A DNA stretch of 39,702 nt from Cytophagaceae bacterium (GCA_947441055.1 CANETC010000007.1:1-39702), one strand, 5' to 3'; counted from the stretch's first letter, positions 2,539 through 34,242 are shown. Program-made: numbers and translations. The notes: generated from the letters alone by a model not told the origin.

Positions 2539-5500
2539 CTAATCCCTTTCTCTCTTAATTTCAATCCAGCCCTGAGTAGCAAAATTCTTCAGCTTTGCAT
2601 TGAATTTATAAAAATACAAACCGTCCTGAAGTTCACCCCCATTCCAAGGATTTGCATTGCTGTAATTTTTCTGGCTTAAAACTTCCTGGCCCCAACGGTT
2701 GGTAATCACCAATTCATTTTCTGGATACAGATCAAGGTTTTTGATCACGAAGCCATCATTTGCATTGTCACCATTTGGTGTAATCAGGTTGTAGAAATCA
2801 AGTTTGTTTTCAAAATCCAGCTTCACTTTGTTGGAGTATGAAAATTGGCCATCCCAATTAAGTGCCACAATCCGGTACCACTGAACAAAGGCATCACCCG
2901 CATTTTTAAACTTGGCATTTGGAAGTGGAGAAGCCTCAATGCCTGTTTCGTAATCGGAAAGGCTATTCTCATCAAATCCCCTTAAAACCGTATATATCGG
3001 TTCACGCACCCATCCAATGTATGGGTTCCAGACGAGGTTGCTGGTTTCTGAGGCATTGTCTGCAGAGCCAAAAAGTCGGATTGTATTGTGGAAATCACTT
3101 TCAATTCCACGCTGACAAAGATTGGTTCCAGAAACTTTGTATTGCCAGATTTTGCCTGAAGTCTCGCCCGGTTGATCGGTATAAGAAGTAGCATCTTTTG
3201 CCAATCCATTCTGAATCTGATTCCAAGTATTGGTTCCAAATTCTCTTCTCCAAAGTGTGATGTCAGATGGATTGCTTGCCTGACTTGCCATTGAAAACTG
3301 AATGTCCACTTTGGTTTCATCGTCCTCCTGCAAGCTTACAAGATTGATACCAAGCGAAGAAGGATCATACTGAAGTGGCAAGGTGGTATCCTTAGAGCAA
3401 CCCTGAGAACTTGTTTCCGTCAGCACCAAACCATAAATTCCTGAATTGTCCCAATTAACACCCAGCAATTTCTCATTGGTTGGGGTGCTGGCTGTTCCAC
3501 CAGTGATTGACCATGAAAAAGTAGAGTTTTCAAATCCAATTGCAGGCTGAGCAATGTATCCTCTTGAAAGATCATTCGGACAAATGTTGAGTGTAGTCAA
3601 GGAAGAAATTCCCGGACTAGGAAGAGGATTCACCACAATATTCTTTGTCCTTGGAATTCCCACACAACCTTTGTTTGAAGTCTCTAAAACGGAAAGCTGG
3701 TAATTGCCGTTCGCAACCCAATTGAGCTGCAGTGAATCTGTTCCTTGTCCACCGAGTATGGCAACCACATTCGGACTTACTTCCCACTGGTAACTCGAAC
3801 CAGCAAATCCGGCGAGGCTGTAAAACTCTGGCCTTCCTGACGGCGTAGCGCAAACAGCAGAGATACCAGAGATGTTGAGGGTAGAATCCGGACTTGGATT
3901 GATCCGAACAGAAAGTGTATCAGATTCACCAAAGCACTGAACCGGGGTTCCGGTAATTGGGTCAACTGTAGAACTCTTCTCACGGATCCAGATTTGAGCA
4001 AGGCCATCGTTTATGTTCCAATCCACAGAAACCTGACCTGTTGTAGTGGTATCTGTAGAAATCGTTGCGCCATTCAAATTCCAGATATAAGTGGAACCTT
4101 GGGTAAAGGCGGTGTTGTAAATTCTTCCGGTCTTATTGAAAGAGCAAAGCACCGTATCACCAAATGGCATTACAGGTGTCAAATTTGTGTTTATGGCAAT
4201 TGCCAAAGAATCAGCAGTGCCTACGCAACCATACTGGTTGGTAACCTGCACCTTTACTTCCGCATTTGGATTTGTGTCACCCCAGTTCACCGAAATTCCG
4301 AAAGAACTATCGCCACTGGCTTGTGTACCTCCGGAGATTGTCCACTGATATACGCCCTGAATTTCAGGATTGGTAATTTGATAAGAAATACCAGGGCTGA
4401 ACGGACAAATGGTTGGACTGAACACAGCAAACTGAACAGGTCCTGGTCTTGGGTTCGTGGTAATGATCACAGAATCACGCTTGAGACACTGGGTTTTGCT
4501 GTTCGTCATCAACACAACAAGCGTATCATTCCTCACAGTACTCAGTGGGGTACTCATGCTGAAACCAGGATCAGAAATGGTTTGTGAACCAAGTCCTGAA
4601 TTGGCCGACCAATTGTATTGGTAACCTGTCTGACTGGCCTGACCCACTTGGGTATTTTCACCCGAACAAATGCTGCGGTCTGCACCGGCATTTACTGCAG
4701 GCAAGGGATTAACCCGAACATTCAGATTGGAAGAATCTCGGCAACCAGTCACAATGTTGCTTACAATTAGTTTGTACGTCTGGTTTTGAACCGTATCGCT
4801 GCTGTTAACGAGCGTCAGAAGCGGATTGGCAGAATTTGGTCCTATGCTTAAACCGCTTCCAATCCATTGATAATCATTTGGTACCTGAATAGATCCCGGC
4901 CCAATCTGAATTGTATCTCCTGAGCAAAGTGAATCCAGCAGACCGGTATTCACAATTGGCAATGGATTCACATTAATATTAACCGAATCCGAGCGCTTAC
5001 ATGTGCTGAGTGGATTGGTGACGGTTAGAACATAAAGTTGCGCAGCGCTTCCGGGAGAAGTAGCCGAGCTGAAAATTGGATTTGCAACTGAATCAAAATT
5101 CAAATTAACAGCCGGAGACCAGCTGTATTCCAGATTGATATCGCCTGTAATTCCAAGTTGTGCGCTTAAAGTGGCACAAACAGCCAAACTGTCCTGTGAA
5201 TAAGCAATGGCAACTGGAGAAGGTTTCACAGTGAGTTCCACCACATCAGAGCTGTCGCAACCTGTGTAGCGGGTGCTGTCCCAAACCTGAACCGAATACT
5301 GCACAACAATATTGCTGCTGGCATCATTCACCAAAGCGACTTTGGGATTGGCAATGAATGGGTTTGAAAGTCCGGTGGATGGAGTCCAGAGATAACGCAT
5401 ACCGACAACAGGTGCCGAACCAATTTGAACTGAATCTCTGGAACAAATAATCTGGTCTGCACCAGCATTTGCATCTGGAAGTGGATTTACCGCCACTGTC

Positions 5501-8500
5501 AAGCTGCGGTTGTCTTTACAACCCGTGGTTGAATTGGTAGACAATAGCGTGTATTGGTAGAGACTTACCGTATCCGCGTTGTTTACTGCTGTGAAACCTG
5601 TGAAGGCCAGACTTGAATCCACCAAAGAGATTGAAGGAGACCATGCATATTGAATTCCATTTTCAGAATTGCCTCCAAGGAAAAGGGTATCGCGTGTACA
5701 TACTGCGGTATCCGCGTAGGCCAAAGGAACAAGTGGCAATGGATTAACTTGAACTAAGACAGAATCTTCATTGCGACAAGTGCTCACAGTATTGTTGACT
5801 TTTACCTTGTAAGTGAAATAGGCAACAGATTGTGTAGGATTGTTGATGTTTAAAACCGGATTGCTCAAGTTTGATGAACTTAAAGCGGAATCAGGAACCC
5901 ATGCATACACATGGTTTGCCAAAGTAGTATCACCAAGGGCCAGATCAGTGCGGGAACAAACTACCAAGGTATCAGCACCAGCTGCTATGGCAATCGGCAA
6001 TGGCTTGACAGTCACAGTCAATGAATCATAATTCTTGCAACCAGTTATGTTGTTTGTTTTTGTAACCTTATACGGAACAGAGATGCTGATTCCTCCAGTG
6101 TTCGGATTTTGAAGGCCCAGATTTGGATTACCGACAATCGAATCTTCAAGGCCTGCGCTTGGAAACCAGGAATAAGCAAAACCGTCCTGAGAATTTTCTC
6201 CAATCTGAATGCTGTCACCCGAACAAAGCGCAGTATCAAGACCAGCGCTTACGATTGGAAGCGGATTTACAAGCACCTGAACGGTGTCACTTTTCTTGCA
6301 ACCGGTAGCTTGGATCGTGGCCGTTAGTACATAAGCATTTCCTGCTGGAGAAGTAGAAAGATTAGAGGTGAATACTGGATTGGAAATAATGGCAGAACTT
6401 AGACTGTCGGCAGGAATCCAGTTGTAACCAAGACCTGTTTCAGCAGAAATTCCAAGTGAAAGTGGAAAGCCAGAACAAATTTCTAAAGTATCCTGATCGG
6501 AAGCCACAACATTTGGCAAAGGCTTAATTGTGACGGTTACAGCATCAGAGCTGTCGCAACGCGTAATCAATGTAGTGTCGTAAACAGTTACGGTGTACAC
6601 CACATTCACTTCAAAACTACTATCGTTTACAAGGCTCAAGAAAGGATTGGAAATATTCGGGTTGGAAAGGCCATCAACAGGCGACCAGCTATACCGCTTT
6701 CCAGCTTGTGGGTCCGAACCAATCTGAATGGAATCACGAGAGCAAACAACTTTGTCAACACCTGCATTGGCATCTGGAAGTGGGTTTACCTGAACCTTAA
6801 CGCCTGCATTATTGCGACATCCAGTTTCCTCAATGGTAACCAATAAATTGTAGTCATAATTCACAGGAAGGTCGGTGTTGTTTACAGCCGAAAAACCGGT
6901 TAAAGCCAGAGTTGAATCTGTGAGATTCAGGTTTGGTGTCCATGCATACTCATATCCAGAATCGGACAATCCTCCAATGAAAATTGTATCACGACTGCAA
7001 ACCATTGTATCGGCATAAGCCAAAGGCACAATCGGCAAAGGATTAACCTGAACCACTACAGAATCAGAATTCCGGCATTTGGTAAAACTGTTCTGTACAT
7101 TCACGGTATAGGTAAAATACTGCGCCTGCTGACTTGGGTTGTTGATATTCAAAATCGGGTTTGAAACTTCAGCGGAAGTAATCGCTGAATCTGGAACCCA
7201 GGCATAAGTGTGGGCAGTTAGACTATCAACTCCTAATTGTAAATCCTGCAAAGAACAAACCGCCAAAGTATCAGAAGCCGATGCTATGGCAATCGGCAAT
7301 GGTTTCACCACCACGATAAGGGAATCATAATTCCGGCATTTTGTCTGCAGATTGGTTTTGGTGACTTTATATAACAATGTTTCGATTGAACCACCTGTAT
7401 TTGGGTTGATCAGGGTAATTTCCGGATCAGAAGATGAATCTGTAATCAGGCCTGTGGATGGAGTCCATGCATATGAGTATCCGGTTTCCTTAACCTCACC
7501 GATGCGAATTGTATCACCTGAACAGAAATTGGTATCTAAACCAGCTTCAACAATCGGCAACGGATTAACCCGAATGGCAATTTGTTTTTCCCTAGAACAA
7601 GCCGTAAACTGATTGCTTACAAGTAAGGTATAAAGCGTATCACCCGGATTTTGACCCAGATTTTCAAGACTAACAATGGTGGATGCCGAATCGCCATTTG
7701 CCAAACCTCTTGTTGGTGTCCATGCATAATTAAATCCGCTCTGAGCTACAGTACCTATGTTGATTGAGAACCCGGAACAAATGGAATCTTTATCAGCCAG
7801 TTCAAAGAATGGAAGCGGATTGATTTTGAGTACAATGGAATCGGTGTTGGAACAAGTTGGTTCGCCCGGTAATGGGAATCCCAAAGTTTCCGTCTTGGAA
7901 AGAAAATACTTCTGGAATTGCACCTCAACAGAATCTGGATTCAAACTCACCGAACTGGTATCTGAATTTGGATTTAGCAAACCATTCGAAGGAGTCCAGC
8001 TATAAATGGCTGTAACTGTATCAATCGTGCCAATCAAAGTTTTTCCACCTGAACAAATTGTAAGTGAATCAGGACCTGCATTCACAACTGGCAATGGTTT
8101 TACAAAAAGCCGAACTGTATCGGTGGACCGGCAATTGCTCGCGCGGTGGGTAGCAGTCTGAACAAAAGTTGCCGTTTGATTCCCCTGACCAGAATTGCTT
8201 ACTGTGGCAATTGTCTGGAAACTGGTATCAGAATTAACACCAATTGCAGGCGACCATTGATACGAATATTGCGAATATGCGGTTGGTTGAACTGTACCAA
8301 TTCCACGGGTAGATCCAGAACAAAGTATGGAATCAAGTCCAGCATTGGCGACTTCAGGAATCCAGTTTACGGTAATTGTATCTTTTGCCACACAACCCCC
8401 TGGACCATTACTGGTTACAACGAAAGTGGAGGTATCAGCCAGAGTAGCAAGTGGGTTTCGAACAGAAGCAGAACTGAGGCCTGTAGACGGCGCCCAGGAA

Positions 8501-10161
8501 ACGGCAGCATAACCACCAGCCGCATTCAACCTGATGCTGGAATCCTGACAAATAAAATTAGATGGTGCAGTAGCTAGAACAGGTACAAATTGGTACTTCT
8601 TTACTTTTAAGAAACTAGAATCTTTGCAACCAAGTCCACTTGTAACCACCAGTCGGATATTAGCAGTATCTCCAGGGATAGAAAGTGAAATTGAACTTGA
8701 GGTATCAATTCCAGAAATATTTCCTCCAAATACCTTCCACTTCCTGCCGGTTCCGGATGGCGCCGAATAAGTAAGCAAACCATCAGTGGAGCAAATGGAA
8801 TCACGGCCTGTAATCTTTGGAGCTTTAAATGGATTTACAATAATGGTATAAACCACATTGTTCGTCTTTGGCGGACATCCTTCATCGGTATATTTAACCA
8901 CCACAGAATAGTTCCGCACAATTCCACCCGTAACTCCACAATCAATTTTCCAGCGGAAAGTGGTTGAAACAGTATCTGTTCCCGACACAGATGGGCAAAT
9001 GGCAACCTGTCCAGTTTCATTGGCCGGGTCAAAGAGTTCGGACTGGGCAACAATCGTGGTTGTATTCTGGTCATAAGAACTAATCTTGAAAACCACACTG
9101 TCGCCTTCATTCTTAATGAAGGTAGTTCCTGCACTGGTTCCACCATCAATAATCGGACTTGGGGGTGGATTTGGATCGCAGTTTTTCACCACCACCAGAA
9201 ATTCCCTGCGGGTGGTGGAAAGCAAAATTTCTGTGCCGTTGGAAAGGGTTCTATATTCCTGAATATCAATGGCAACTGCAAAGTTTCCATTGGTGTTGGA
9301 AAAGTATTTTGTAAGCCCTGTACTTGGATTGATGTAAGCGTAACCAGTAGGCCCAAATGGAGCCGATTGCGAATAGCCAGGTGCAAAAGACGCATTTAAT
9401 GGTTCTATATATGTATTAGAAGGTTGAATATCCCCACTGTAGGGAGTTGCAAAGGAATAAATCAGTCGATCACCGTCCGGATCAAAGGCGTTATTTGAAA
9501 TAACTGCGGTATCTCCGTTGCAAAAAAATGGAACAGCATCTCCAATAAACTGAGGCGAACTATTCACATAAATGGGGGAAGGAATTGTAGCCAGCCAGCT
9601 ATTCCCTGGATTACTATTGCCTCCGCCACCTCCAGTGAAAAGCAGATTGGTGGTATTCTCGGTACGGCAACAGTTTTCGTATTTAATCTTGTATCCCGAA
9701 AATGAAAGTGGAAGCTGAACTTCAAAAATCGTATCGGTGATGGCAATATTAAGGTCTGATGCCCCAGGAACTATGCAGCCGGGAGGAATAGGCAAAACAA
9801 GCGGCCTGATTCCACCATAATATGGGTTAATCGCACATGGACCCTGAATCTGATCTCCATGCGTTGGAAGACTCCAGCCTTCTTCAAATGGTGATTTTGT
9901 AATCTGCTGATTATTAGAAGCATCAAATACAAACAAAGTTGGGTTGCCACCAAGATTGCCACAACCCCAGTTACTTGCTTGGCCGGGAGTTCCAACACGG
10001 TCAACATAACCTACAAAATGGATTAAATAACGAAAGGGCCTGTCAACAGGCCCATCGCTACCAATATATTTATATGTCAACTCCCCACCTAAAATGTGTG
10101 TCCCGAAAGTAGGAAGACACAATGCGAGCATGACCAGCAAAATGCCGGAGAACTTTTTCAT
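2539..10161 (-). CDS. Giant secreted Ig-like repeat adhesin with type B T9SS sorting domain
   Basis: This protein has about 2,540 residues. The ATG at 10161 is chosen because it starts a clean signal peptide (MKKFSGILLVMLALCLPTFG); an in-frame start 18 bp upstream is possible. The mature N-terminus has the HILGGELTYKYIG motif, a CCR segment, DPDGDRLIYS and REFLVVVK, a pattern common in large Bacteroidota surface proteins. An Ig/PKD-like region follows, then fifteen ~86-residue units each starting with PLP or a variant and carrying a C-S-x-D...IG...Y-x-W-x-P core, then several longer PKD-like units. The C-terminus (TPNGDNANDGF, then NRWGQEVLSQ, WNGGELQDGLYFYKF) is a gliding-motility-type (type B) sorting domain. 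T9SS exports such proteins to the cell surface. The gene lies 30 bp downstream of another T9SS cargo gene, so the two are probably cotranscribed. The ligand is unknown. Confidence 0.9.
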   Translation of the reverse strand: MKKFSGILLVMLALCLPTFGTHILGGELTYKYIGSDGPVDRPFRYLIHFVGYVDRVGTPGQASNWGCGNLGGNPTLFVFDASNNQQITKSPFEEGWSLPTHGDQIQGPCAINPYYGGIRPLVLPIPPGCIVPGASDLNIAITDTIFEVQLPLSFSGYKIKYENCCRTENTTNLLFTGGGGGNSNPGNSWLATIPSPIYVNSSPQFIGDAVPFFCNGDTAVISNNAFDPDGDRLIYSFATPYSGDIQPSNTYIEPLNASFAPGYSQSAPFGPTGYAYINPSTGLTKYFSNTNGNFAVAIDIQEYRTLSNGTEILLSTTRREFLVVVKNCDPNPPPSPIIDGGTSAGTTFIKNEGDSVVFKISSYDQNTTTIVAQSELFDPANETGQVAICPSVSGTDTVSTTFRWKIDCGVTGGIVRNYSVVVKYTDEGCPPKTNNVVYTIIVNPFKAPKITGRDSICSTDGLLTYSAPSGTGRKWKVFGGNISGIDTSSSISLSIPGDTANIRLVVTSGLGCKDSSFLKVKKYQFVPVLATAPSNFICQDSSIRLNAAGGYAAVSWAPSTGLSSASVRNPLATLADTSTFVVTSNGPGGCVAKDTITVNWIPEVANAGLDSILCSGSTRGIGTVQPTAYSQYSYQWSPAIGVNSDTSFQTIATVSNSGQGNQTATFVQTATHRASNCRSTDTVRLFVKPLPVVNAGPDSLTICSGGKTLIGTIDTVTAIYSWTPSNGLLNPNSDTSSVSLNPDSVEVQFQKYFLSKTETLGFPLPGEPTCSNTDSIVLKINPLPFFELADKDSICSGFSINIGTVAQSGFNYAWTPTRGLANGDSASTIVSLENLGQNPGDTLYTLLVSNQFTACSREKQIAIRVNPLPIVEAGLDTNFCSGDTIRIGEVKETGYSYAWTPSTGLITDSSSDPEITLINPNTGGSIETLLYKVTKTNLQTKCRNYDSLIVVVKPLPIAIASASDTLAVCSLQDLQLGVDSLTAHTYAWVPDSAITSAEVSNPILNINNPSQQAQYFTYTVNVQNSFTKCRNSDSVVVQVNPLPIVPLAYADTMVCSRDTIFIGGLSDSGYEYAWTPNLNLTDSTLALTGFSAVNNTDLPVNYDYNLLVTIEETGCRNNAGVKVQVNPLPDANAGVDKVVCSRDSIQIGSDPQAGKRYSWSPVDGLSNPNISNPFLSLVNDSSFEVNVVYTVTVYDTTLITRCDSSDAVTVTIKPLPNVVASDQDTLEICSGFPLSLGISAETGLGYNWIPADSLSSAIISNPVFTSNLSTSPAGNAYVLTATIQATGCKKSDTVQVLVNPLPIVSAGLDTALCSGDSIQIGENSQDGFAYSWFPSAGLEDSIVGNPNLGLQNPNTGGISISVPYKVTKTNNITGCKNYDSLTVTVKPLPIAIAAGADTLVVCSRTDLALGDTTLANHVYAWVPDSALSSSNLSNPVLNINNPTQSVAYFTYKVKVNNTVSTCRNEDSVLVQVNPLPLVPLAYADTAVCTRDTLFLGGNSENGIQYAWSPSISLVDSSLAFTGFTAVNNADTVSLYQYTLLSTNSTTGCKDNRSLTVAVNPLPDANAGADQIICSRDSVQIGSAPVVGMRYLWTPSTGLSNPFIANPKVALVNDASSNIVVQYSVQVWDSTRYTGCDSSDVVELTVKPSPVAIAYSQDSLAVCATLSAQLGITGDINLEYSWSPAVNLNFDSVANPIFSSATSPGSAAQLYVLTVTNPLSTCKRSDSVNINVNPLPIVNTGLLDSLCSGDTIQIGPGSIQVPNDYQWIGSGLSIGPNSANPLLTLVNSSDTVQNQTYKLIVSNIVTGCRDSSNLNVRVNPLPAVNAGADRSICSGENTQVGQASQTGYQYNWSANSGLGSQTISDPGFSMSTPLSTVRNDTLVVLMTNSKTQCLKRDSVIITTNPRPGPVQFAVFSPTICPFSPGISYQITNPEIQGVYQWTISGGTQASGDSSFGISVNWGDTNPNAEVKVQVTNQYGCVGTADSLAIAINTNLTPVMPFGDTVLCSFNKTGRIYNTAFTQGSTYIWNLNGATISTDTTTTGQVSVDWNINDGLAQIWIREKSSTVDPITGTPVQCFGESDTLSVRINPSPDSTLNISGISAVCATPSGRPEFYSLAGFAGSSYQWEVSPNVVAILGGQGTDSLQLNWVANGNYQLSVLETSNKGCVGIPRTKNIVVNPLPSPGISSLTTLNICPNDLSRGYIAQPAIGFENSTFSWSITGGTASTPTNEKLLGVNWDNSGIYGLVLTETSSQGCSKDTTLPLQYDPSSLGINLVSLQEDDETKVDIQFSMASQASNPSDITLWRREFGTNTWNQIQNGLAKDATSYTDQPGETSGKIWQYKVSGTNLCQRGIESDFHNTIRLFGSADNASETSNLVWNPYIGWVREPIYTVLRGFDENSLSDYETGIEASPLPNAKFKNAGDAFVQWYRIVALNWDGQFSYSNKVKLDFENKLDFYNLITPNGDNANDGFVIKNLDLYPENELVITNRWGQEVLSQKNYSNANPWNGGELQDGLYFYKFNAKLKNFATQGWIEIKRERD
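4966..6264 (-). repeat. Five-unit super-repeat, copy 2 (433 codons)
   Basis: This follows copy 1 directly and has the same length (1,299 bp) and the same unit lengths in the same order. The unit-specific motifs recur: NPNTGG and YKVTKTN in A, YAWVPDSA and NINNP in B, PLAYADT and AVNN in C, PLPDANAG and CDSSD in D, and a matching E unit with VANPIF and LYVLT. The copies have diverged at many positions, so the duplication is not recent. Confidence 0.85.
6265..7563 (-). repeat. Five-unit super-repeat, copy 1 (433 codons)
   Basis: Five distinct Ig-like units, called A-E here, of 87, 87, 86, 87 and 86 codons. Diagnostic pieces are NPNTGG plus YKVTKTN in A, YAWVPDSA plus NINNP in B, PLAYADT plus AVNN in C, PLPDANAG plus CDSSD in D, and ISNPVF plus AYVLT in E. 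All recur in the same order in the adjacent copy. Confidence 0.85.
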
Positions 10162-10191
10162 AATAATTTGATTGAACAAAACTGGTAGATT

Positions 10192-13100
10192 CTATTTCTG
10201 AACTGATATCCTTTTTACAACAGGACCTGATTGAGTAATTACCTTAACCTGATACAAGCCAGCAGGCAAATCACGGAGGTCAAGTTGGCGGTCTGAAGAA
10301 ATATTCTCTTCAACACCAGAGGCAACTTTCCGACCACTTATGTCGCAAACTTCCCAATCCATGCGTCCATTTCCAAATCCAGAAATGTTGAATATTCCTG
10401 TTGATGGGTTTGGATACACAAGAATTGAAGGCAAATTTTTAACACTCGCAGTTGAAGCCGGATTGGTAATTTTTACAGAATAATCTTCAACTTGTCCTTG
10501 AGCAGGATTGTAGCAAGAGTTGTAAATCTGATTAAAACGATTGTCTGTGATTACACGCATGCGGACAGGAACACCAAGGCATTGGAATACTGATGGAGTA
10601 ACAAGCGCCGTATGAACCGTACTATTCGTACTGTTCAACACCTGCTCAAAGTCTTCCATTATTCCGTCGTTGTTGTAGTCGATATACACCTTACAATTTT
10701 CTGCAGTGTTTGCATTACCACTGTTGACGGTCAGGTTAATTCCCTGAAATCCTGAAATGGTTACAACCGCAGAATCGGTGCAGGAATAGTCCACATAACC
10801 ACCATCAACCGAAGCCAAAGCTGAAGTCTTATCAAGATTTCCAAAACGAACGCGGGTAGTTCCATTGTTTGGTGAAGGCGTCGCAACATTTGGGTAACAA
10901 CTTGGGGCAATAATTCCAGCGATTCCCGAAACAGAAATATAATTGGTTCTCGTAATTGAGTCTGCACCAATGGTGTTGCTTACTTTTAGCTTAACTGTAT
11001 AAGTTCCGGAAGCAGCGTACTGGTGCAGCGGGTTCTTCAGACTGGAAGTTTGACCATCACCAAAATTCCACATCCAGGTTTCAGGCTGGAACCTGGAGCT
11101 ATCGCGGAATTGAATCACACCATTGCAAGTTGTAGTTTGAGCAGCAGAAATTCTGGCAACCGGAGCAACTGTGGCAGGAGCCGCCCAAACCAAACGAACC
11201 CTGTAGTCTTCTTGCTGACCAGCCTGAATAAAGGAACAAGCATTAAATAACTGGTTGTTTGGATTGTCGGTCATCACACGCATACGAACCGGAACCCCAA
11301 GGCATTGGGCAGCTGTGAGGCTAACAACCGCGCGGTGAAGTGTATTGTTTGTGGTGGAAAGAACCCGCTCAGCCGTGGTGAAAATTCCATCATTGTTAAA
11401 ATCAATGAATACCCTGCAATTCTCTCGAACCTGACCGGCAGAAGTTCTTACAATGATAGAATCAACCTGACCGGCATTGGAAACAACCACAAGAGAAGAA
11501 TCAGTACATGTGTAATCTACATATCCGCCATCTTCAAAGGAAAGTCCGTTTGTAACATTCAGGCTACCAAAACGAACATTGGTGGTTCCATTTTGCTGAC
11601 CTGGATTTTGCACAATACTGCGGCAAGTTGCCGGAATAATTCCACTGAGGTCATTAACTGTAATCATGTTGGGAATTTCCAGCGAGTCGGCACCAAAGGC
11701 GTTGGTAACTTTAAGCTTAACCGTGAAAACTCCTGTTTGAGTGTACTGGTGAAGCGGATTGCGGCTGGAAGAAAAAGTACCATCGCCGAAGCTCCACTTC
11801 CAAGAACTTGGCTCAAAAAGTGAGCTGTCTGAAAATTGCACATAACCACTGCAGGTAAGATCGGTACTTGCGGAGAAACTCGCCTGTGGTGGATTTGTAT
11901 TAAAGTAATTCCATACAAGCCTAACGGAATAATCTTCAACCTGACCAGCCTGCGGATTGTAGCAAGCCGAAGTAATCTGGGCGAAGCGATTTTCAGACAT
12001 AACACGCATACGAACTGGCACGCCAAGACATTGCGCAGGAGTCAGGGTAATGTTGGCTATATGGACATTGTTGTTTTGACCATTAAGCACAGATTCGGCA
12101 TTGGTAAAAATCCCGTCATTATTGAAATCAATAAAAACCCTGCAGTTTTCACGGGTCTGGCCAGAGGAAGTATTTACGATTAAGGCCTCAACTTGATTTG
12201 GCTGGTTAATGATCACAATTGCTGTATCCGAACAGGTTTTATCGAGGTATCCACCTTCCGCTGCAGCAAGGCCACTGCTTGCATTCAAGGAACCAAATTG
12301 AACCTGAACAACTCCATTGGTTGCACCCGGAGTCGCAACGGTGTTTACACATGCAGGTGGAATTGGTCCATTGTTTCCGGTAATGTTTGCATAGTTTACA
12401 CGAATCAGTGAATCTGCACCATATGCGTTGGAAACCTTTAATTTAACAGTATAAGATCCGTTGGCGGCATATTGGTGAATCGGATTTTTCTGGGTGGAAG
12501 TAAGTCCATCTCCGAACTGCCAGTACCAGGAAGTGGGTAAAAACTGGGAACTATCCGCAAACTGAATAAACCCAGAACAACTTGTAGTATTTAGTGCTCC
12601 GAAATTTGCTACTGGTGGAATGGTGTTCGGAATTACTATTACCGCATAATCTTCGCACTGCCCAAAATTTGGATTACTGCAAGGTGCAATGTTTCCGCCG
12701 CCACCGCCGCCGCCGCCTTGGGCAGCATCAGAAATAACACGCATTCTGAGCGCGGTATCTTTTACTGCTGTGGCAGGAATGTTTATATTGGCTGTGAATG
12801 TATTTCCGTTAGCTCCATTAAGAATACGCTCAGCCGGATCTTCAAATGTTCCATTGTTGTTCCAGTCAATCCATGCACGGCAATTTTCATTAAAATTACC
12901 ACTGGTTTGAACAGATATTGTGTAGGGTTGACCAGCGAAAAGGCTGGTCCTAATTGCACATGAATTGTCTACATAAGATTCCTGAGGGGCTGTACCACTT
13001 TGATTCGAAATGGTATTGAGGGTAACATTTGTAATCCCAACACCCGGGTTATTTTGAAGGTTGAGGGTTTGAGGCGTGCAAGGTGCTGGCTTAAGAAATT

Positions 13101-15996
13101 TATTATCAATGATGGTGATATAAGAAGCCTTTTTCAGCGAGTCAGTTCCATTTGCGTTTCCGGCAATAAGTGTCACCGTGTAAACACCAGCTGCAGTATA
13201 TTGGTGAAATGGATTGCGAATGTTGGATGTTTGTCCATCGCCAAACTTCCAAAGCCAGGTGGTTGGGGCGTTAAAGGATGTATCGGTAAACTGTATTCCT
13301 GAAGCGCAAGTAATCGTTTCACTTGCGGTGAATAATGTTTGAGGTGCAAGATTGTTGCCCGTTAGCACCATTTGATAATCCTCTACCTGACCGAAAGTCA
13401 TATCCTCACAGGCCCCACCAATTGGTTGGTCGCCAATCGCAGATTTAACCCGCATACGAAGTCCGAGACCGGCAGGAGCATTTCCAGGAATAAGGATGTT
13501 TCCCCCGTGCGTAGTAGATCCGGTAGAAGTGAAAACCAATTCATCGTCTGCAAATGCACCGTCGTTGTTCCAGTCAATCCAAACGGCCACATTTTCATTG
13601 TTTGTGCCTGAATTAAGAATGGTAATCGGAAGGCTGCTGCCAATTTGAGCACTGCCAATGGTATTGCAGGTAAAGTCCTTGTACCCTTCAGTTGCATTTT
13701 GTGAAGATTGATCGATTCCAGCAAAGACAACTTTGGCAATTCCATACTGGCAACAATTTCCGAATGAAATTGGATAACATTCAGCTGCCACCATTCCAGT
13801 TGTCTGAGAAACAGTCACATAATTATTTTTCGTTAATGTATCAGAACCAAAAGCATTTGAAACAATCAGCTTGACAGTATAAGTTCCTGTGGCGGCATAC
13901 ACATGCAAAGGAGATTGATCGGAGGAAGTATTTCCATCCCCGAAATCCCAGGCCCAAGTTTCAGGTAAATTCTGGGAGCTGTCGGTAAATTGAACAATTC
14001 CTGTGCAGGAATTTGGTTTGTCGGCTCGGAAAATAGCAGTCGGTTTGCTTGTGTTGGCTTTTACAATTACACCATAATCTTCAGCCTGACCGCCTAAAAC
14101 ATTGCCACAGGAATTTGGAGCTTGATTGACCTGCTGAAGAAGAGTAACCACACGCATGCGAAGTGTAGTATCATTTACTGCTGTTAATGGCAAAGTTACA
14201 ATTGTAGTATGAACAGTATCATTCTGGGAAAACATTACCTGCTCGTTGGTTTCAAAAGTTCCGCTGTTGTCCCAGTCAATCCAGGCACTAACTTTACTAG
14301 GCTGATCCACTGAATTGCGAACTGTGAGTGTAATTCCTTGGCCACCAAGTCCAGATGTCTGATCGGTACAGGTAAAATCTTGATAGCCTTCCTGAAAACT
14401 ACCAGAGCGCTTGAAAATGGTTCCGAATTTAACTTCGGCTATACCGGTTCCAAAACCTCCACCTCCGCCACCAAAATTCTGGGTGGGTGCAACGCAGGTT
14501 GCTTTTGGTGCTCCGAGGTAATTTACTGCTTTGGCTTTGGTAATTGAATCAGAACCAAATTGGCCTACCACCAAAAGCTTTACATCATAGGTTCCAAAGT
14601 TTGAATAGGTATGGCCAACCTGCGAAGAAGTTGTAAGAGTATCTGTTCCATCTCCAAAATACCAATGATAAAATTGAACTGAGTTGGTTGAAGTACTTGT
14701 GAATTGAAAATTTGGCTGGCAATAACCATCTACTGCAGTAACTACAAAAGAAGCAGAGGGAGGATTTGTATTGGCCTTAATATAAATGGTATAATCCTCG
14801 CACTGACCTTTGTCCAGATTGGTGCAGATAGAAAATGGACCACCCGTAAACTCACTCATTACGCGAACACGAAGCGCCCGATTGATCTTCACCGAAGTAT
14901 CTGAGGATACCTGAATTGTTCCACTTGGATTCTTGGAGTTGAGTGATTCAAAAACCAATTCACTTCCCTCAAAAATTCCGTTTCCATTGTAATCAATCCA
15001 AACTCGGGTATCCTGATTCTGATTTGGATTGGTTCCAACCTGAATCGGATAACTTAGACCTTGCAGCAAAGTTGTGCGCTGTGTACAGGTAAATGACTCA
15101 TAAGAACCCAGGGCGGAAGAATTGTCGATGGTATTCAGTGCAAAGCGACTGATTCCATATCCGCAACACTGATTGATTGTAATCGGCTGACAAACAGTTG
15201 CAACAGGAACTGAATCGTTGTAACGAACGAAATTGTTCTTTAAAATTGAATCCGAACCATTGGCACTGTTCACCAAAAGTTTTACCGAATAAAGTCCTGG
15301 CTGCACATATTGGTGACTTGGATTCTGAAGGCTCGAAGTTTGTCCATCACCAAAATTCCAAAGCCAAGAAGTCGGACTATTCAAAGATTGATCCGTAAAC
15401 ACAACAGATCCAGAACAAGTAAGGGTATCCGAAACAGTGAAACGAGCCACTGGAGGATTTGCATTTTGACCCAGAAGAACGGCATAATCCTCAACCTGAG
15501 AATATTCTGGTGTGGTGCAAGCACCTGGCAAAACTGCCGATACCACTGCATCGGAAGTGATTCGCAATTTTATTTGCTGGCCAGCGGTTCCGGATGAAAT
15601 ATTGATATTGCCAGTATGAACCTTGGCATTGGTAGAATTAAAAACCAATTCATCCGTGGTAAAAGAGCCGCTGTTGTCCTTGTCTAGGAAAATTTTAAGG
15701 TTCTCAGAAATATTGTTTCCCGTCTTGATGTAAACAGCAACATTGGTTCCCAATGCGATGTTGATAGGCCCAAGACTGCAATAATCCTGATAGCCTTCAG
15801 ATGCACCTCCAGTGTTGTTGATAAAAGTGTCCCCAATCTTCACCTGAAGGATTCCGCCTCCAAACAAATTGGCCTGAGGATTGGACGCCGCACCTGGGGT
15901 ACAAGTATTTGATATCGGGCATTGCGCCGACACATTACCCGAAACAAAAAGGCTTGTGAAGGCTGATAGCAAGACCAGGAATCTGAATTTTTTCAC
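10192..15996 (-). CDS. Secreted GEVED/PKD repeat protein with type A T9SS sorting domain
   Basis: This protein has 1,934 residues. The start is a GTG at 15996, chosen because it begins a clear signal peptide (MKKFRFLVLLSAFTSLFVSG, cleavage near SAQ). Eight GEVED domains alternate with seven PKD domains. Each GEVED has a D-x-N-N-D-G-type loop (for example FIDFNNDGIF) and ends with a GQVEDY-like motif. Each PKD has a W-x-FGDG-x-T core and an H-x-Y turn. The last ~89 residues (LVYPNPSTGIFNISG, DLPAGLYQVKV, ending KRISVQK) form a type A T9SS sorting domain, normally cleaved when the protein is anchored or released. The protein is probably a surface adhesin or matrix component. The D/N-rich loops resemble calcium-binding loops, which is inference. 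It is first in a probable two-gene transcript with the adhesin downstream. Confidence 0.9.
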   Translation of the reverse strand: MKKFRFLVLLSAFTSLFVSGNVSAQCPISNTCTPGAASNPQANLFGGGILQVKIGDTFINNTGGASEGYQDYCSLGPINIALGTNVAVYIKTGNNISENLKIFLDKDNSGSFTTDELVFNSTNAKVHTGNINISSGTAGQQIKLRITSDAVVSAVLPGACTTPEYSQVEDYAVLLGQNANPPVARFTVSDTLTCSGSVVFTDQSLNSPTSWLWNFGDGQTSSLQNPSHQYVQPGLYSVKLLVNSANGSDSILKNNFVRYNDSVPVATVCQPITINQCCGYGISRFALNTIDNSSALGSYESFTCTQRTTLLQGLSYPIQVGTNPNQNQDTRVWIDYNGNGIFEGSELVFESLNSKNPSGTIQVSSDTSVKINRALRVRVMSEFTGGPFSICTNLDKGQCEDYTIYIKANTNPPSASFVVTAVDGYCQPNFQFTSTSTNSVQFYHWYFGDGTDTLTTSSQVGHTYSNFGTYDVKLLVVGQFGSDSITKAKAVNYLGAPKATCVAPTQNFGGGGGGFGTGIAEVKFGTIFKRSGSFQEGYQDFTCTDQTSGLGGQGITLTVRNSVDQPSKVSAWIDWDNSGTFETNEQVMFSQNDTVHTTIVTLPLTAVNDTTLRMRVVTLLQQVNQAPNSCGNVLGGQAEDYGVIVKANTSKPTAIFRADKPNSCTGIVQFTDSSQNLPETWAWDFGDGNTSSDQSPLHVYAATGTYTVKLIVSNAFGSDTLTKNNYVTVSQTTGMVAAECYPISFGNCCQYGIAKVVFAGIDQSSQNATEGYKDFTCNTIGSAQIGSSLPITILNSGTNNENVAVWIDWNNDGAFADDELVFTSTGSTTHGGNILIPGNAPAGLGLRMRVKSAIGDQPIGGACEDMTFGQVEDYQMVLTGNNLAPQTLFTASETITCASGIQFTDTSFNAPTTWLWKFGDGQTSNIRNPFHQYTAAGVYTVTLIAGNANGTDSLKKASYITIIDNKFLKPAPCTPQTLNLQNNPGVGITNVTLNTISNQSGTAPQESYVDNSCAIRTSLFAGQPYTISVQTSGNFNENCRAWIDWNNNGTFEDPAERILNGANGNTFTANINIPATAVKDTALRMRVISDAAQGGGGGGGGNIAPCSNPNFGQCEDYAVIVIPNTIPPVANFGALNTTSCSGFIQFADSSQFLPTSWYWQFGDGLTSTQKNPIHQYAANGSYTVKLKVSNAYGADSLIRVNYANITGNNGPIPPACVNTVATPGATNGVVQVQFGSLNASSGLAAAEGGYLDKTCSDTAIVIINQPNQVEALIVNTSSGQTRENCRVFIDFNNDGIFTNAESVLNGQNNNVHIANITLTPAQCLGVPVRMRVMSENRFAQITSACYNPQAGQVEDYSVRLVWNYFNTNPPQASFSASTDLTCSGYVQFSDSSLFEPSSWKWSFGDGTFSSSRNPLHQYTQTGVFTVKLKVTNAFGADSLEIPNMITVNDLSGIIPATCRSIVQNPGQQNGTTNVRFGSLNVTNGLSFEDGGYVDYTCTDSSLVVVSNAGQVDSIIVRTSAGQVRENCRVFIDFNNDGIFTTAERVLSTTNNTLHRAVVSLTAAQCLGVPVRMRVMTDNPNNQLFNACSFIQAGQQEDYRVRLVWAAPATVAPVARISAAQTTTCNGVIQFRDSSRFQPETWMWNFGDGQTSSLKNPLHQYAASGTYTVKLKVSNTIGADSITRTNYISVSGIAGIIAPSCYPNVATPSPNNGTTRVRFGNLDKTSALASVDGGYVDYSCTDSAVVTISGFQGINLTVNSGNANTAENCKVYIDYNNDGIMEDFEQVLNSTNSTVHTALVTPSVFQCLGVPVRMRVITDNRFNQIYNSCYNPAQGQVEDYSVKITNPASTASVKNLPSILVYPNPSTGIFNISGFGNGRMDWEVCDISGRKVASGVEENISSDRQLDLRDLPAGLYQVKVITQSGPVVKRISVQK
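10462..15918 (-). repeat. Alternating GEVED-PKD domain array (8 GEVED, 7 PKD)
   Basis: The PKD FGDG cores fall near 15353, 14650, 13935, 13240, 12515, 11790 and 11060, a period of about 695-730 bp. GEVED modules fill the gaps, and an eighth GEVED follows the last PKD before the sorting domain. The last three GEVED units (nearest the C-terminus) share phrases such as CLGVPVRMRV and VFIDFNNDGIF or close variants, so they look like the most recent duplications. Confidence 0.85.
12694..12717 (-). repeat. Glycine-codon microsatellite in the fifth GEVED domain
   Basis: Eight consecutive glycine codons, mostly GGC with one GGT and one GGA, sit in a loop between AAQ and NIAPC. The near-pure GCC/GGC tract could expand or contract by slippage in whole codons, which would change only loop length. 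A second Gly6 tract in the third GEVED domain uses mixed codons and is not a microsatellite. Confidence 0.7.
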
Positions 15997-28680: not shown

Positions 28681-28775
28681 CGAATATTTGAAATTCGGAT
28701 CCATGTTGGTTAGGAATAAGAATCAGCCATTCATTTCAAACATCATCCGGCCAATTTTTGAAAGAACCTATACAA

Positions 28776-31700
28776 ATGACAAAACTTCTACGAAATAATT
28801 CTGGCTTAAAAGGGCTGATGCTTTTGTGGATTTTGGAAGGCTTTTTAAGCTTCATTCCATTACAAAATGCAGAGGCACAATGTGTCAGAATCAGAGACAG
28901 AAGACGAAACAATGCCTGGACTTTTACACCAAAAAAGGATTTCAAGTGTCTGGCCAACAACCAGTCGCCAATCACCACTTTCACCCTAACATTTGAGTTT
29001 CCGGTAAGCAATGTAAACATCAATTGGGGCGATACTATTGCAACTTATGAAGGTCCGCTCACCACGGTTTCAAGGACTTATAAAGACACAGGCACATTTG
29101 CGTATACCATTACAGAAGAAAATTGTCCGACCCCAATAAGCGGTTATTTTGTAAACAACTACAACAAAACCTGTCCGGGTGTCGGCTGGATTGCGCCCCC
29201 GAATGATTCTACAAGATGTATGCCCGCCACGATTCAGCTGAGCAATTTTTCACCCCGGCAAAATGGTTTTACCGAATGGGTGATCAATTGGGGAGACAAC
29301 AAGAGAGATACTGCAGATTATCCCAGTTATGGAAAAGTATTTTCCCATGTTTACAAAGCGGGTAGTAAGATATGCAATGCAGTCATCTCAATTGGGTACA
29401 GAAATTCTTGCAATGTAATTCCCTGCGGTCAGGCTTTAAGCGGGGTATTTGGTCCTTACCGATTTATGGAAAGAGACTCTGCCATTGTAAGCCCGTCTTC
29501 TGTCCTGATTTGTAGTCCAACAGCCATTACCATCAACGATATTTCCAAGTTGAATTGTCTGGATACCGCAAACAGGCTTGTAAGCTGGACAGCTATGGAT
29601 GGATTTGGGCAACCCCTACCTAATCCAGGAAATAACATATGGAGACCAAGGGGACCCGCTAAGAACAAAACGATTACAATTCCTGCGGACATGTTTTCGG
29701 TGGTACCACCTGACAGCCTATTTAAAATCCGGATGAGGATTCAAAACAAATGCGGTGCAGATACAGCCGAAACCATTGTCAGAATAATCCCTTCTGTAGC
29801 ACCTAAATTTTCAATTTTAACTCAAAATGGTTGTGCTGGTTCTCCAATCCCGTTTGCAAACAACTCTGTAGTAACTTTTGGCACGGTTCGATATGTGTGG
29901 AATTTTGGAGATGGAAAAATTGACTCCTCGTTTACAACCAATGTAAACCATACTTACACCAATAGTGGAACCTATACGGTAAAGCTCAAGGCTAGGACAA
30001 TCGGATACAACAACCAGATTTGCGACAGGGAAATTAGTGATACAGTTCGTGTTCGACCGGCTGTACTTCCAATCGTAACCTCCAGCATTGATAAGGGATG
30101 CGACTCTTTGATTGTCACCCTAAAAAACAAATCAAAATTCACCAACAATGTGAAATGGCAAGGCTGGGAATTTGGTGGAACACCGTCCATAAACGGCGAT
30201 ACAAACTATTACCCAGGTCCCGTAAGCTCGAATCCAGGGATTGTAAGTATATTGTCTACCAACCCTTTGGATTCATCTGCACAAGTTAAATTTCGAAAAT
30301 ACGGCGCCTACATTGTCAAACTAAAAGCCACCACCAGCGGCTGTGCCCTAAATACGGGTTTAGATACCATTACCATTTTACCCAGACCCAAACTTCGTTT
30401 CAGGCTTTCATCCACGAATCTTTGTCAGGGCGAAACATTCTTTCTTTATGACTCAAGCCGGGTTCTTGAAACCGATCCCCGAGGTTTGCCTTCAAATTTC
30501 AACAACATAGCCTGGTCGGTAAAAGTTGGGAACGACACCATCATAAACTCAGCATTCCCCATTACCGGCAATTTTAATACCAGAAGAACTACAGCTCTAA
30601 AATTCAAAAGCAATGGCACATTTTGGATAAGGCTCACTGTTTCAGCAGGGGGAGGTTGCCCTACAGCAGACAGCATACAGGTAATTGTGAAACCCAGTGC
30701 TATTCCAAAATTGGCAATCACGAGAGCCAATTGTGCAAGTTCAGAGATAATTCTAAAAAACACCACGGTTGAAAATGCCAATAAGTACATCTTCAAAATT
30801 TATAAGGGAAATGGATTACTTATTGGTCAACAGTTACTTGAGTATGTCAAAACCAATAAAACAGATCAGCCGATATTCCTTTCCTATGTACCACCGGGTG
30901 ATTCTTCTTATTACTTTGTTACAATTACCGCGGTAACCTATTCAGGCAACGATTCTTGTGTGGCAACAAGCAGCCCCAGAGTTATAAAAGTTGGGCCAAC
31001 TCCGGTTGCAGGAATCAACATTACACCATTGGACGGATGTACACCGCTCAACAATGTTTCAGTTCAAAATACTTCATTTAACCTACCCTTTGATGGCTCG
31101 GCAACATTCAGTTGGAAGCTCGGATCCCTTGGAAACTTTTCAGGAAACACTCCGCCACCACTTACTTTCACAAATGAAGGAAACACCAACAAACGCGATA
31201 CAATCAAGCTTTGCATCAATACCATTAATGGATGCAGCTACTGCAAAGAGGCAGTTGTGCTTACCTACCCAGCGCCCAAGGGAGTAATTTCAGCACCAGA
31301 CAGCATTTGCTCTGGAGATGAAATCAGCCTTTCTGCCAGTGCAGTTGGTGCAGTTTCCTATAACTGGGAATTCACGGATTATGATGGTTCATCCTCCACG
31401 CAAACAAGTCTTTCGAAGGTTTTCAACAATGCCACCGGTGTTCCACAGTTTTATACAATCCGTCTAATCCTGCGCTCTGCAGCGGATTGTCCATCAATTT
31501 TCGAAAAAACTCTTAAAGTAAATCCCAAGCCAGAATTTGAATTTCAAAGCACCACTTCACAAGATGAAAATTGTGGCTTACTCAGGGCCAAATTCTATTA
31601 CCTGAATTCTGACAATGCAGTTAGCTACAAATGGAAGTTCGGTGCTTCAGACAGTCTCATTACGAGCGCATTAGATACGATTTACAAAAGCTTTGGCAAT

Positions 31701-34235
31701 GAAACATCAGCGCAAATTCAACTGCCAGTCACATTAACTGCAACTTCCAAACGAGGCTGCAAAACCACCAAACAAAACTTTTTGGCTGTAAATCCTTTGG
31801 TAAAAGCGCGGTTCAAGGTATCAGCAGATTCCGGATGCGCCCCGATGGCAATTACCTTAACCGATAGTTCCACACTGGCATCGAATGTGAGGCGATGGCT
31901 TGTGAATGGCATGGCAGTCCAAAGCCAGACCGACATCCTAAATTATGTTTTGAACAATCCCCTTCTTCAGGATACGGTGTATACCATACAACTCGCAGTT
32001 AGGAACGATATCGGATTTAATTGTGTGGATACCGCCACAAAAAAAATAAAGGTTTTTTCTAAGCCTCGCTCCAACGACCTGATTGTAAGTCCAGCCTCAG
32101 GATGTAGCCCCTTGCTGGTAACCTTTACGGGCTATGCCGAAAATGCAATTCAGTATTTATGGAAATTCGGGGATGGGGTGGATAGCCTGACCAACAGCCA
32201 GGTAATCAGCCATTCATTCTTCAATTTCAGTCCTACTGCCAACCAGGTTTTCAATGTAACGCGAATTGCCAGTTCTGTAAAGGGTTGCACGGATACCACC
32301 ACAAGACAGATAACCGCGAAACCCAGAACCGAAGCCATCATTTCAGCGCTCACAACCAGCGGATGTTCTCCGCTATCCGTACAATTTTCTGCAGCAAATT
32401 CTGTAAACTACACTTCGGTTGAATGGAATTTTGACGACAATACCGTTAACAGTTCTTCGATTAACCCATTGCATATTTTCAATAACAATTCTGATTCGGT
32501 TCAGATTCGGAGGGTACGACTGGTGGCTAGAAAAATCCAGACAAATTCTTGTCCGGATACCTCCTATATCGACATCACTGTAAACCCAACACCGGTGGCA
32601 GGATTCTCAATGAGCAACAGCATCGGTTGCGGGCCATTGCCGGTAATTTTCACAGACTTGTCAGTTGGAGGAATCAGCAGTTATTGGACATTAAATGCAG
32701 GTGGAGTAAGCACCATTTTATTGCCAGACACCGGCGGACTGGCCGATACCCTGATTGACAATCCAAACTTTGTTTCCAAAAATATTCAGGTAATACAGAC
32801 TGTAACATCGACAGGTGGATGCACCAGCACCAAAACACAAAACATTCAGATCTTTCCAAACCTGACTGCCGAATTCAATTTCGACTCTAGTGGTTGTCAT
32901 CCTCATCTGGTAAAATTCCTCAATACCAGCGAAAACTTTTTAGGCTCCTATACTTGGAATTTTGGTGATGGTAGCTCAAGCTCAGAAAAGAATCCTTTGC
33001 ACCTTTATGAGAACTTTACCGACAAAGACACCATTTATAATGTAACACTCACTTCCATATCACCTGTTGGGAACTGTGAAAAAACCCGTACAGCAAAAGC
33101 CAAAGTATACGCAAGTCCAAGAGCTGATTTCATTTTCCAATCGGATTCCAGCATTCAATTGCCTGTAAACTCCATTACCATTCGAAACAAAACGCGCTTT
33201 TTGGGCGCCTGGAATTACAAATGGACATTTGACGATGGATCAGGTGTTTTTACAGGCAATGATGCGGTATTCACCCACCAGTTTCCCCTCGGAGATGATT
33301 ATTTCACCGATACAAATTTCGTGATCAGTCTGGTTGCCATTAGCCCAAGAGGATGTACCGATACTTTGAAAAAAACTATGGTAATCATTCCCGGAAAACC
33401 TGTGCCAGCATTTGAAGTAACACCAAGAATCATTTGTGCTGGAAATCAGGTTCAGTTTACAAACCTTTCCTCCTTTTCCAGCGAATCAGAATGGACCTAT
33501 CAGGATACCGAAGGCTCGCCTAACATCACCATAAAAGGCGGTAATCCAGTGGTTTACTTTGGAAGTCCGGGCCGTAAAACAATTAAGCTTAAAGTAAAAG
33601 GCCTTGGAGGCAGAGATTCCCTCACCAAGTATGATTACATATTTGTGTATGCCAAACCTTCCAGCTACTTTGAAACCATTCCGCTCAACAAAGAAGTTGT
33701 GGCGCCTGAGGAAGATGCCATTTTTATTGAAATCCCACCTTGCGATGATTCTCTGGGCTGCACCTACCGCTGGGATTTTGGAGATGGAACTGGAGATACC
33801 TTGTATGACAACCAACCAGTCAGACACCGTTATCAGGGACCAGGAAAATATAAAATTAGTTTGCTGGTAACCAATAGCCTGGGCTGCAGCTCGGTACTTA
33901 ACCAAGACAGCATCAGGGCAGTTGCAGCAAGGGACATTGCTGTACCCAATGGCTTTATTCCCTTAAACACACCGGGAGGTTGCCCGATTGACAATTTCAA
34001 AAAGCTACCCACCTGCATTTTTTACCCACTCACAAGCGGAATGGTGGCCATGAATATGCTCATTTTCAATCGCTGGGGACAATTGCTGTTTGAAAGCAAT
34101 GAACTTGGAAAAGGTTGGGATGGATTCTACTTAGGCAAAGCCCTTCCTGGTGGAACTTATATTTATAGAATTGTGGCTGATTTCTCAAACGGCGACAAAC
34201 AGACTATAACAGGGGATGTTACAATTTTAAGGTAA
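28776..34235 (+). CDS. Giant secreted PKD-repeat protein with type B-like T9SS sorting domain
   Basis: The protein has 1,819 residues from the ATG at 28776; an in-frame TTG at 28758 is less likely. A long signal peptide ends near NAEAQ (residue 35). The body is a series of a dozen or so PKD-type units. Several open with a GC-x-P motif (DGCTPLNNVSVQNTS, DSGCAPMAITLTDSS, ASGCSPLLVTFTGYA, SSGCHPHLVKFLNTS) and carry W-x-FGDG cores such as YVWNFGDG, YTWNFGDG and YRWDFGDG. The C-terminus (MLIFNRWGQLLFES, then GWDGFYLGKALPGGTYIYRI, ending GDVTILR) is a gliding-motility-type sorting domain. The PorP/SprF gene starts 7 bp after the stop. By family knowledge, type B cargo needs a PorP/SprF partner for export and anchoring. 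The protein is probably a surface adhesin; its ligand is unknown. Confidence 0.9.
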   Translation: MTKLLRNNSGLKGLMLLWILEGFLSFIPLQNAEAQCVRIRDRRRNNAWTFTPKKDFKCLANNQSPITTFTLTFEFPVSNVNINWGDTIATYEGPLTTVSRTYKDTGTFAYTITEENCPTPISGYFVNNYNKTCPGVGWIAPPNDSTRCMPATIQLSNFSPRQNGFTEWVINWGDNKRDTADYPSYGKVFSHVYKAGSKICNAVISIGYRNSCNVIPCGQALSGVFGPYRFMERDSAIVSPSSVLICSPTAITINDISKLNCLDTANRLVSWTAMDGFGQPLPNPGNNIWRPRGPAKNKTITIPADMFSVVPPDSLFKIRMRIQNKCGADTAETIVRIIPSVAPKFSILTQNGCAGSPIPFANNSVVTFGTVRYVWNFGDGKIDSSFTTNVNHTYTNSGTYTVKLKARTIGYNNQICDREISDTVRVRPAVLPIVTSSIDKGCDSLIVTLKNKSKFTNNVKWQGWEFGGTPSINGDTNYYPGPVSSNPGIVSILSTNPLDSSAQVKFRKYGAYIVKLKATTSGCALNTGLDTITILPRPKLRFRLSSTNLCQGETFFLYDSSRVLETDPRGLPSNFNNIAWSVKVGNDTIINSAFPITGNFNTRRTTALKFKSNGTFWIRLTVSAGGGCPTADSIQVIVKPSAIPKLAITRANCASSEIILKNTTVENANKYIFKIYKGNGLLIGQQLLEYVKTNKTDQPIFLSYVPPGDSSYYFVTITAVTYSGNDSCVATSSPRVIKVGPTPVAGINITPLDGCTPLNNVSVQNTSFNLPFDGSATFSWKLGSLGNFSGNTPPPLTFTNEGNTNKRDTIKLCINTINGCSYCKEAVVLTYPAPKGVISAPDSICSGDEISLSASAVGAVSYNWEFTDYDGSSSTQTSLSKVFNNATGVPQFYTIRLILRSAADCPSIFEKTLKVNPKPEFEFQSTTSQDENCGLLRAKFYYLNSDNAVSYKWKFGASDSLITSALDTIYKSFGNETSAQIQLPVTLTATSKRGCKTTKQNFLAVNPLVKARFKVSADSGCAPMAITLTDSSTLASNVRRWLVNGMAVQSQTDILNYVLNNPLLQDTVYTIQLAVRNDIGFNCVDTATKKIKVFSKPRSNDLIVSPASGCSPLLVTFTGYAENAIQYLWKFGDGVDSLTNSQVISHSFFNFSPTANQVFNVTRIASSVKGCTDTTTRQITAKPRTEAIISALTTSGCSPLSVQFSAANSVNYTSVEWNFDDNTVNSSSINPLHIFNNNSDSVQIRRVRLVARKIQTNSCPDTSYIDITVNPTPVAGFSMSNSIGCGPLPVIFTDLSVGGISSYWTLNAGGVSTILLPDTGGLADTLIDNPNFVSKNIQVIQTVTSTGGCTSTKTQNIQIFPNLTAEFNFDSSGCHPHLVKFLNTSENFLGSYTWNFGDGSSSSEKNPLHLYENFTDKDTIYNVTLTSISPVGNCEKTRTAKAKVYASPRADFIFQSDSSIQLPVNSITIRNKTRFLGAWNYKWTFDDGSGVFTGNDAVFTHQFPLGDDYFTDTNFVISLVAISPRGCTDTLKKTMVIIPGKPVPAFEVTPRIICAGNQVQFTNLSSFSSESEWTYQDTEGSPNITIKGGNPVVYFGSPGRKTIKLKVKGLGGRDSLTKYDYIFVYAKPSSYFETIPLNKEVVAPEEDAIFIEIPPCDDSLGCTYRWDFGDGTGDTLYDNQPVRHRYQGPGKYKISLLVTNSLGCSSVLNQDSIRAVAARDIAVPNGFIPLNTPGGCPIDNFKKLPTCIFYPLTSGMVAMNMLIFNRWGQLLFESNELGKGWDGFYLGKALPGGTYIYRIVADFSNGDKQTITGDVTILR

Positions 34236-34242
34236 TAAGAAC

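Follow-up and report, generated by a model that had tools for sequence, protein, structure and literature searches.

A tandem copy of a five-domain block in the Ig-like stalk of a predicted type IX-secreted protein from a Cytophagaceae bacterium

The locus described here raises the question of how a long array of Ig-like domains in a bacterial protein has grown, by single domains or by blocks of several, and whether the spacing of such a block is itself kept by selection. It lies in a 39,702-nucleotide stretch of DNA from Cytophagaceae bacterium (GCA_947441055.1 CANETC010000007.1:1-39702), the whole of which was analysed and which we refer to as the window. The original prediction was that five neighbouring units of the array, termed A-B-C-D-E, occur as an ordered set twice in succession, that this array grew by copying of the block rather than of single domains, and that the preserved unit lengths point to the spacing within a rod segment of five domains being under selection. 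We compared the two copies with each other, with the orthologous genes of congeners and other genera of the family, and with known domain families and solved structures.

The array protein and its predicted export

The array is encoded in one open reading frame on the minus strand (Table 1). The frame is open from a TTG, but the likelier start is the ATG at position 10161 (MKKFSGILLVMLALCLPTFG...), six codons further in, which gives a protein of 2,540 aa; this is taken as the likely true start because a signal-peptide-like stretch, as read from the sequence, follows directly after it. Exactly two cysteines are found at matching places in 15/15 units, and a disulfide is probable within each Ig-like unit. 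For the N-terminal head of the window protein no Pfam family was found, nor any convincing match to a solved structure, GhpA included, and no ligand-binding domain was identified in the array protein.

Table 1 Features of the array gene (positions counted from the first letter of the window).
Feature	Position	Strand	Remarks
Array open reading frame	2539..10179	-	2,546 aa from TTG
N-terminal head (THILGGELTYKYIG...)	8830..10107	-	conserved among the orthologues of the family
Array of 15 Ig-like units (1-15)	4453..8364	-	two Cys each
Units 2-3	7564..8097	-	single in the window; with A, the three-unit block doubled in G001/G002
Cassette 1 (A1-B1-C1-D1-E1)	6265..7563	-	433 aa, residues 873-1305, 1,299 bp
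Unit E1	6265..6522	-	closes cassette 1, next to the junction between the two blocks; 40% identity with E2
Cassette 2 (A2-B2-C2-D2-E2)	4966..6264	-	433 aa, residues 1306-1738, 1,299 bp
Unit E2	4966..5223	-	partner of E1
CHU_C type IX secretion signal domain (type B CTD)	2557..2799	-	

The C-terminus matched the CHU_C family (PF13585) at 65.6 bits (cut-off 27), and the stricter model TIGR04131 scored 33.1 bits on the same protein, just below its cut-off of 35. The type IX secretion system (T9SS) is represented in the window genome (2.9 Mb, 249 contigs) by SprA_N at 91.2 bits, with 22 CHU_C domains and eight PorP-family genes also over cut-off. On this evidence we read the protein as a long T9SS substrate, either secreted or held at the surface, with a stalk of Ig-like domains of about 86 residues each. 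Its export via the type IX system by the type B C-terminal signal, and its display at the surface, are predicted. The label of adhesin is plausible for such a predicted surface protein. Several other giant repeat proteins are encoded in the same genome, with open frames of up to 4,441 aa.

A neighbouring PorP/SprF-like partner is typical of type B substrates, without being obligatory. No PorP/SprF gene was found beside the array gene, the sole one in the 39.7-kb contig being at 34243-35295, approximately 24 kb away. The usual pair of a type B substrate and a PorP/SprF gene was observed elsewhere in the window, at 28758-35295 on the plus strand, where a second CHU_C protein (1,825 aa, with PKD repeats) has a PorP/SprF-family gene directly after it. 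By description, the array protein can be likened to the SprB-type proteins of Flavobacterium johnsoniae, which are likewise very long and carry a type B C-terminal signal; it differs from them in that its gene has no adjoining PorP/SprF gene. Type B CTD proteins are anchored through PorP-like partners, and SprB is held at the surface via SprF (PMC9143113).

Two cassettes of five units

The two cassettes occupy positions 4966-7563 exactly as originally predicted, on the minus strand, with unit lengths of 87, 87, 86, 87 and 86 aa in each. The flanking units are 93, 85, 86 and 85 aa long, as had been claimed, and every unit-specific motif quoted in support of the repeat was found again at the same positions in both cassettes. 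The cassettes align without gaps at 55.7% protein identity and 58.0% DNA identity, the latter being 65% at first, 70% at second and 40% at third codon positions. The identity at third positions compares with 29% expected from composition. Where the residue is conserved, four-fold sites carry the same base in both cassettes in 36 out of 98 cases, again against 29% expected. Both classes of site are therefore close to saturated, indicating that the copies are old and have not been homogenised recently.

The strongest self-match offset in the repeat region was 433 residues (23%), followed by an offset of 260 (16%). Units five positions apart are 57% (A), 63% (B), 58% (C), 60% (D) and 40% (E) identical, while the remaining unit pairs mostly fall between 25 and 43%, with a background of about 33%. 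All of the lag-5 pairs are reciprocal best hits (5/5), and a run of five such hits was matched in 0 of 20,000 shuffles of the unit order. The twofold occurrence of the ordered A-B-C-D-E set is thus upheld by both the offset and the lag-5 pairing.

It had also been predicted that all five units would pair with their counterparts as sisters in a tree of the array. This held in the 15-unit tree for B, C and D (support 95/99, 98/97 and 98/99) and for E (81/80). The two A units did not come out as sisters in this small tree, in which long branches disturb placement. At the level of identity the pairing is clear for A to D (57-63%), and for E it is weaker than the prediction implied. The weak pairing of E1 with E2 can be explained by E being the fastest-evolving unit type in the genus, with a mean identity of 49% versus 58-62% for A-D. 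A hybrid origin of E1, from E and unit 3 with a junction inside the domain, was considered by eye only and was rejected, as E1 looks E-like along its whole length.

The array in congeners and in other genera

Four congeners (G001, G002, G003 and G004) were compared with the window. The orthologue in G002 is complete (2,388 aa) and that in G001 ends at the end of its contig. In both, the units run in the order 1, 2, 3, A, 2', 3', A', B, C, D, E, 14, 15: B-C-D-E is present once, preceded by one A, and it is instead the block 2-3-A which is doubled. A check of related genomes for the number of cassettes, as the original prediction proposed, therefore found A-B-C-D-E once in these two species and a different block doubled. 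This single set in two congeners, together with the significant lag-5 pairing, supports the claim that the array grew by the block and not by single domains. G003, an independent assembly which is 93% identical to the window, shows C2, D2, E2, 14 and 15; contig breaks within the array hide the first cassette from view. A scan of genome contigs for further relatives gave a single locus, on the G003 contig. The G004 orthologue is cut off in unit 3. A MAFFT alignment of both window cassettes with the one cassette each of G001 and G002 filled 433 columns with zero gaps.

Each window cassette is 55-60% identical to the single cassette of G001/G002, and the G001 and G002 cassettes are 63.5% identical to each other. 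The similarity between the two window cassettes (55.7%) is thus like that between the window and its orthologues, which dates the duplication to about the time of the split from G001/G002. In a quartet analysis of units A-D, the grouping of the two window cassettes against G001 and G002 had support of 94/95, and the alternatives had AU p values of 0.04 and 0.03. With E included the support was 87/90 and the alternatives were not rejected (AU p = 0.11 and 0.08). In the unit tree for the genus B, C and D each group both window copies, E1 falls outside a group of E2 and the E units of G001 and G002, and the A units are intermixed. Together these results lend modest support to a duplication which probably took place in the window lineage, just after the G001/G002 split.

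It should also be noted that unit 2 of G004, at the first position, shares a 91-residue form and the motif TEGIVLPGEP with the second copy of this unit (2b) in G001/G002. This likeness is a hint of recombination between copies.

Orthologues in other genera of the family were recognised by the N-terminal head and have complete frames of 2,111-4,669 aa. The G006 orthologue (L058, G006:C47) is 4,669 aa long with 39 detected units; at residues 902-1927 and 3341-4214 it carries a block of three units four times over and a separate five-unit block twice. The two five-unit copies are 65.8% identical, with two small length changes. Matching of units outside the genus to the types A-E gave no reliable assignment, and the G006 five-unit block is therefore not demonstrable as the same cassette; as far as the two arrays can be read, its doubling is independent of that in the window. 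In G008 (L059, G008:C3) four neighbouring single units at residues 1458-1797 are 74-88% identical, which appears to be the youngest single-unit expansion seen. Judged from these sequences, the arrays are turned over by the copying of blocks of differing sizes.

The proposal that selection acts on the five-domain spacing did not survive these comparisons and was rejected, as single-copy unit types keep their length as well and both block size and array length vary among relatives. The argument from length on which it was based compared lengths across different unit types, and so says nothing on indels within a type. When members of one type were compared across the genus, at approximately 50-70% identity, a single length was seen for each of 1, 3, A, B, C, D, E and 14, the exceptions being unit 2 (91/93) and unit 15 (84/85). 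Length-variable types thus number 0 of 5 in the cassette and 2 of 5 in the flanks, which is not a meaningful difference, and units 1 and 14, which are doubled in none of these arrays, have kept their length as well. The doubled block is of five units in the window, of three in the sister species and of three and five in G006, and the arrays comprise 15 units (window), 13, 13 and at least 39. Given that blocks and arrays vary in this way, nothing points to a ruler of five domains. A single block size across the family, as in a nebulin-like super-repeat, was not found in the orthologues compared. The 433 residues are best read as the sum of five domains which each resist indels.

Explanations for the doubling and relation to known systems

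We consider it very probable that the array is the stalk of a T9SS protein in which one five-domain block was copied at about the G001/G002 split, followed by conservation of length domain by domain. A single event of unequal recombination or slippage within the array would have copied five neighbouring domains head to tail, at about the split from G001/G002 and probably just after it, so that a stalk of ten unit types grew to 15 units. The two copies would then have diverged at an orthologue-like pace, with indels in the compact Ig-like fold presumably removed in each domain separately, so that per-domain length was kept. The length of the stalk may serve to extend or display the N-terminal head, with attachment as the probable role.

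The alternative with most weight, although an unlikely one, is that the duplication preceded the G001/G002 split, so that the ancestor had two sets and one was lost by recombination in G001/G002. It would fit the grouping of E2, and not E1, with the E units of the sister species, and the all-unit quartet leaves other topologies standing (AU p 0.08-0.11), the history of the 2-3-A block being undecided too. However, E is the fastest-evolving type and its placement the least reliable, B, C and D each join the window copies, the combined A-D units do so at 94/95 (AU p 0.03-0.04 for the alternatives), and an older duplication needs an extra loss. That the five-domain length was itself selected, as a structural ruler or super-repeat of the kind argued for the seven-domain blocks of nebulin, is very improbable. 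The 433 residues which align ungapped across the two window copies, G001 and G002, and the doubling of five units in another genus (G006), would agree with it, but nearly every unit type keeps its length, single-copy ones included, and the G006 five-unit block is not assignable to A-E. In addition, three units were doubled in the sister species, a three-unit block is present four times in G006, and the arrays have between 13 units and, in the longest, at least 39.

Stepwise copying of one or two domains, with the lag-5 similarity arising later by convergence or gene conversion, is hardly credible: five lag-5 reciprocal best hits are consecutive and in order (0/20,000 shuffles), and synonymous sites near saturation argue against recent conversion. 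The weaker peaks at offsets of 260 and 173, to which this explanation could appeal, reflect older relatedness among the units. There is also a negligible chance that the repeat was falsely doubled in a draft assembly. The source assembly is fragmented into 249 contigs, but copies which are only 58% identical in DNA are far too different to confuse an assembler, the gene lies well inside its contig, and the divergent second copy is also present in G003, which was assembled separately.

The copying of one block, which we prefer, has precedents. Domain repeats commonly grow by duplication of several domains, as in the seven-domain blocks of nebulin, and bacterial Ig-like domains have been named as an example of internal duplication in prokaryotes (PMC1553488). 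The array resembles nebulin-type repeats in that neighbouring domains were copied together inside the array and in its off-diagonal similarity peak, and differs in that block size is not fixed among the relatives of the window protein. A literature search for changes in repeat number in such adhesins found nothing. Block doubling is an ordinary route of length change in rod-like proteins, and the locus shows known processes in a new protein, revealing no new kind of system. It does provide a clean and roughly dated bacterial case of length change in very long surface stalks, in which the blocks of several domains that were copied in an orthologous gene differ between sister species.

For structure prediction, overlapping three-unit windows gave an alignment which was out of register, and these were replaced by non-overlapping pairs. 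The two-unit model of E1-A2, which spans the block junction, had a mean pLDDT of 97.4 and consists of two tandem beta-strand domains. Its best matches among solved structures are Ig-like, and of the aligned chains the top eight were all GhpA of Aureispira sp. CCB-QB1 (PDB 9flp, 9fls, 9flu-9fly and 9g8b; Z 8.8-10.0), the next match being at 8.7. An AlphaFold prediction for all five units together, based on four sequences, reached a pLDDT of only 66 and was left unused. The units are predicted from the model to be Ig-like in fold. Among Pfam families, Ig_7 (PF19081, Ig-like domain CHU_C associated) matched the whole protein at 28.7 bits (cut-off 27.3) and E1-A2 alone at 38.7 bits; this family is matched by some units only. 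Of the orthologue segments, 23/66 matched the PKD-like family PF22352 and 18/66 matched Ig_7.

GhpA is the nearest solved relative of the array protein. The two proteins share homologous Ig-like repeats (profile E 7.8e-237, 43 stretches) and a homologous C-terminal domain (GhpA 5812-5898), and differ in length, GhpA having 5,898 aa versus 2,546 aa here. The phmmer matches to GhpA start at its residue 1178, and a profile of the N-terminal head found no match in GhpA even at E 10. Orthology with GhpA, which the E-value suggested, was rejected given this lack of any match to the head. The resemblance is at the level of the domain family, which is also found in other giant proteins of the window genome. 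In the predator Aureispira, GhpA assembles as a heptamer and catches prey flagella (PMC11205867). It is improbable, though conceivable, that the window protein is a shorter functional counterpart of this grappling hook, with the same type of stalk and a different head, which would catch cells or surfaces and whose reach would have been re-tooled by block copying; it is in this relation that the analysis leaves the most scope for an unexpected result. The link to the solved GhpA structures in any case allows experimental fold and geometry to be transferred to domains of a family of giant T9SS proteins which has no name as yet.

We also observed that the upstream neighbour of the array gene (10192-15996, minus strand) encodes a protein of 1,934 aa with alternating GEVED and PKD domains and a T9SS signal of type A. 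This protein matches itself best at an offset of 242 residues, approximately one GEVED-PKD pair, and a neighbour of the same type adjoins the array gene in G002, G003 and G004.
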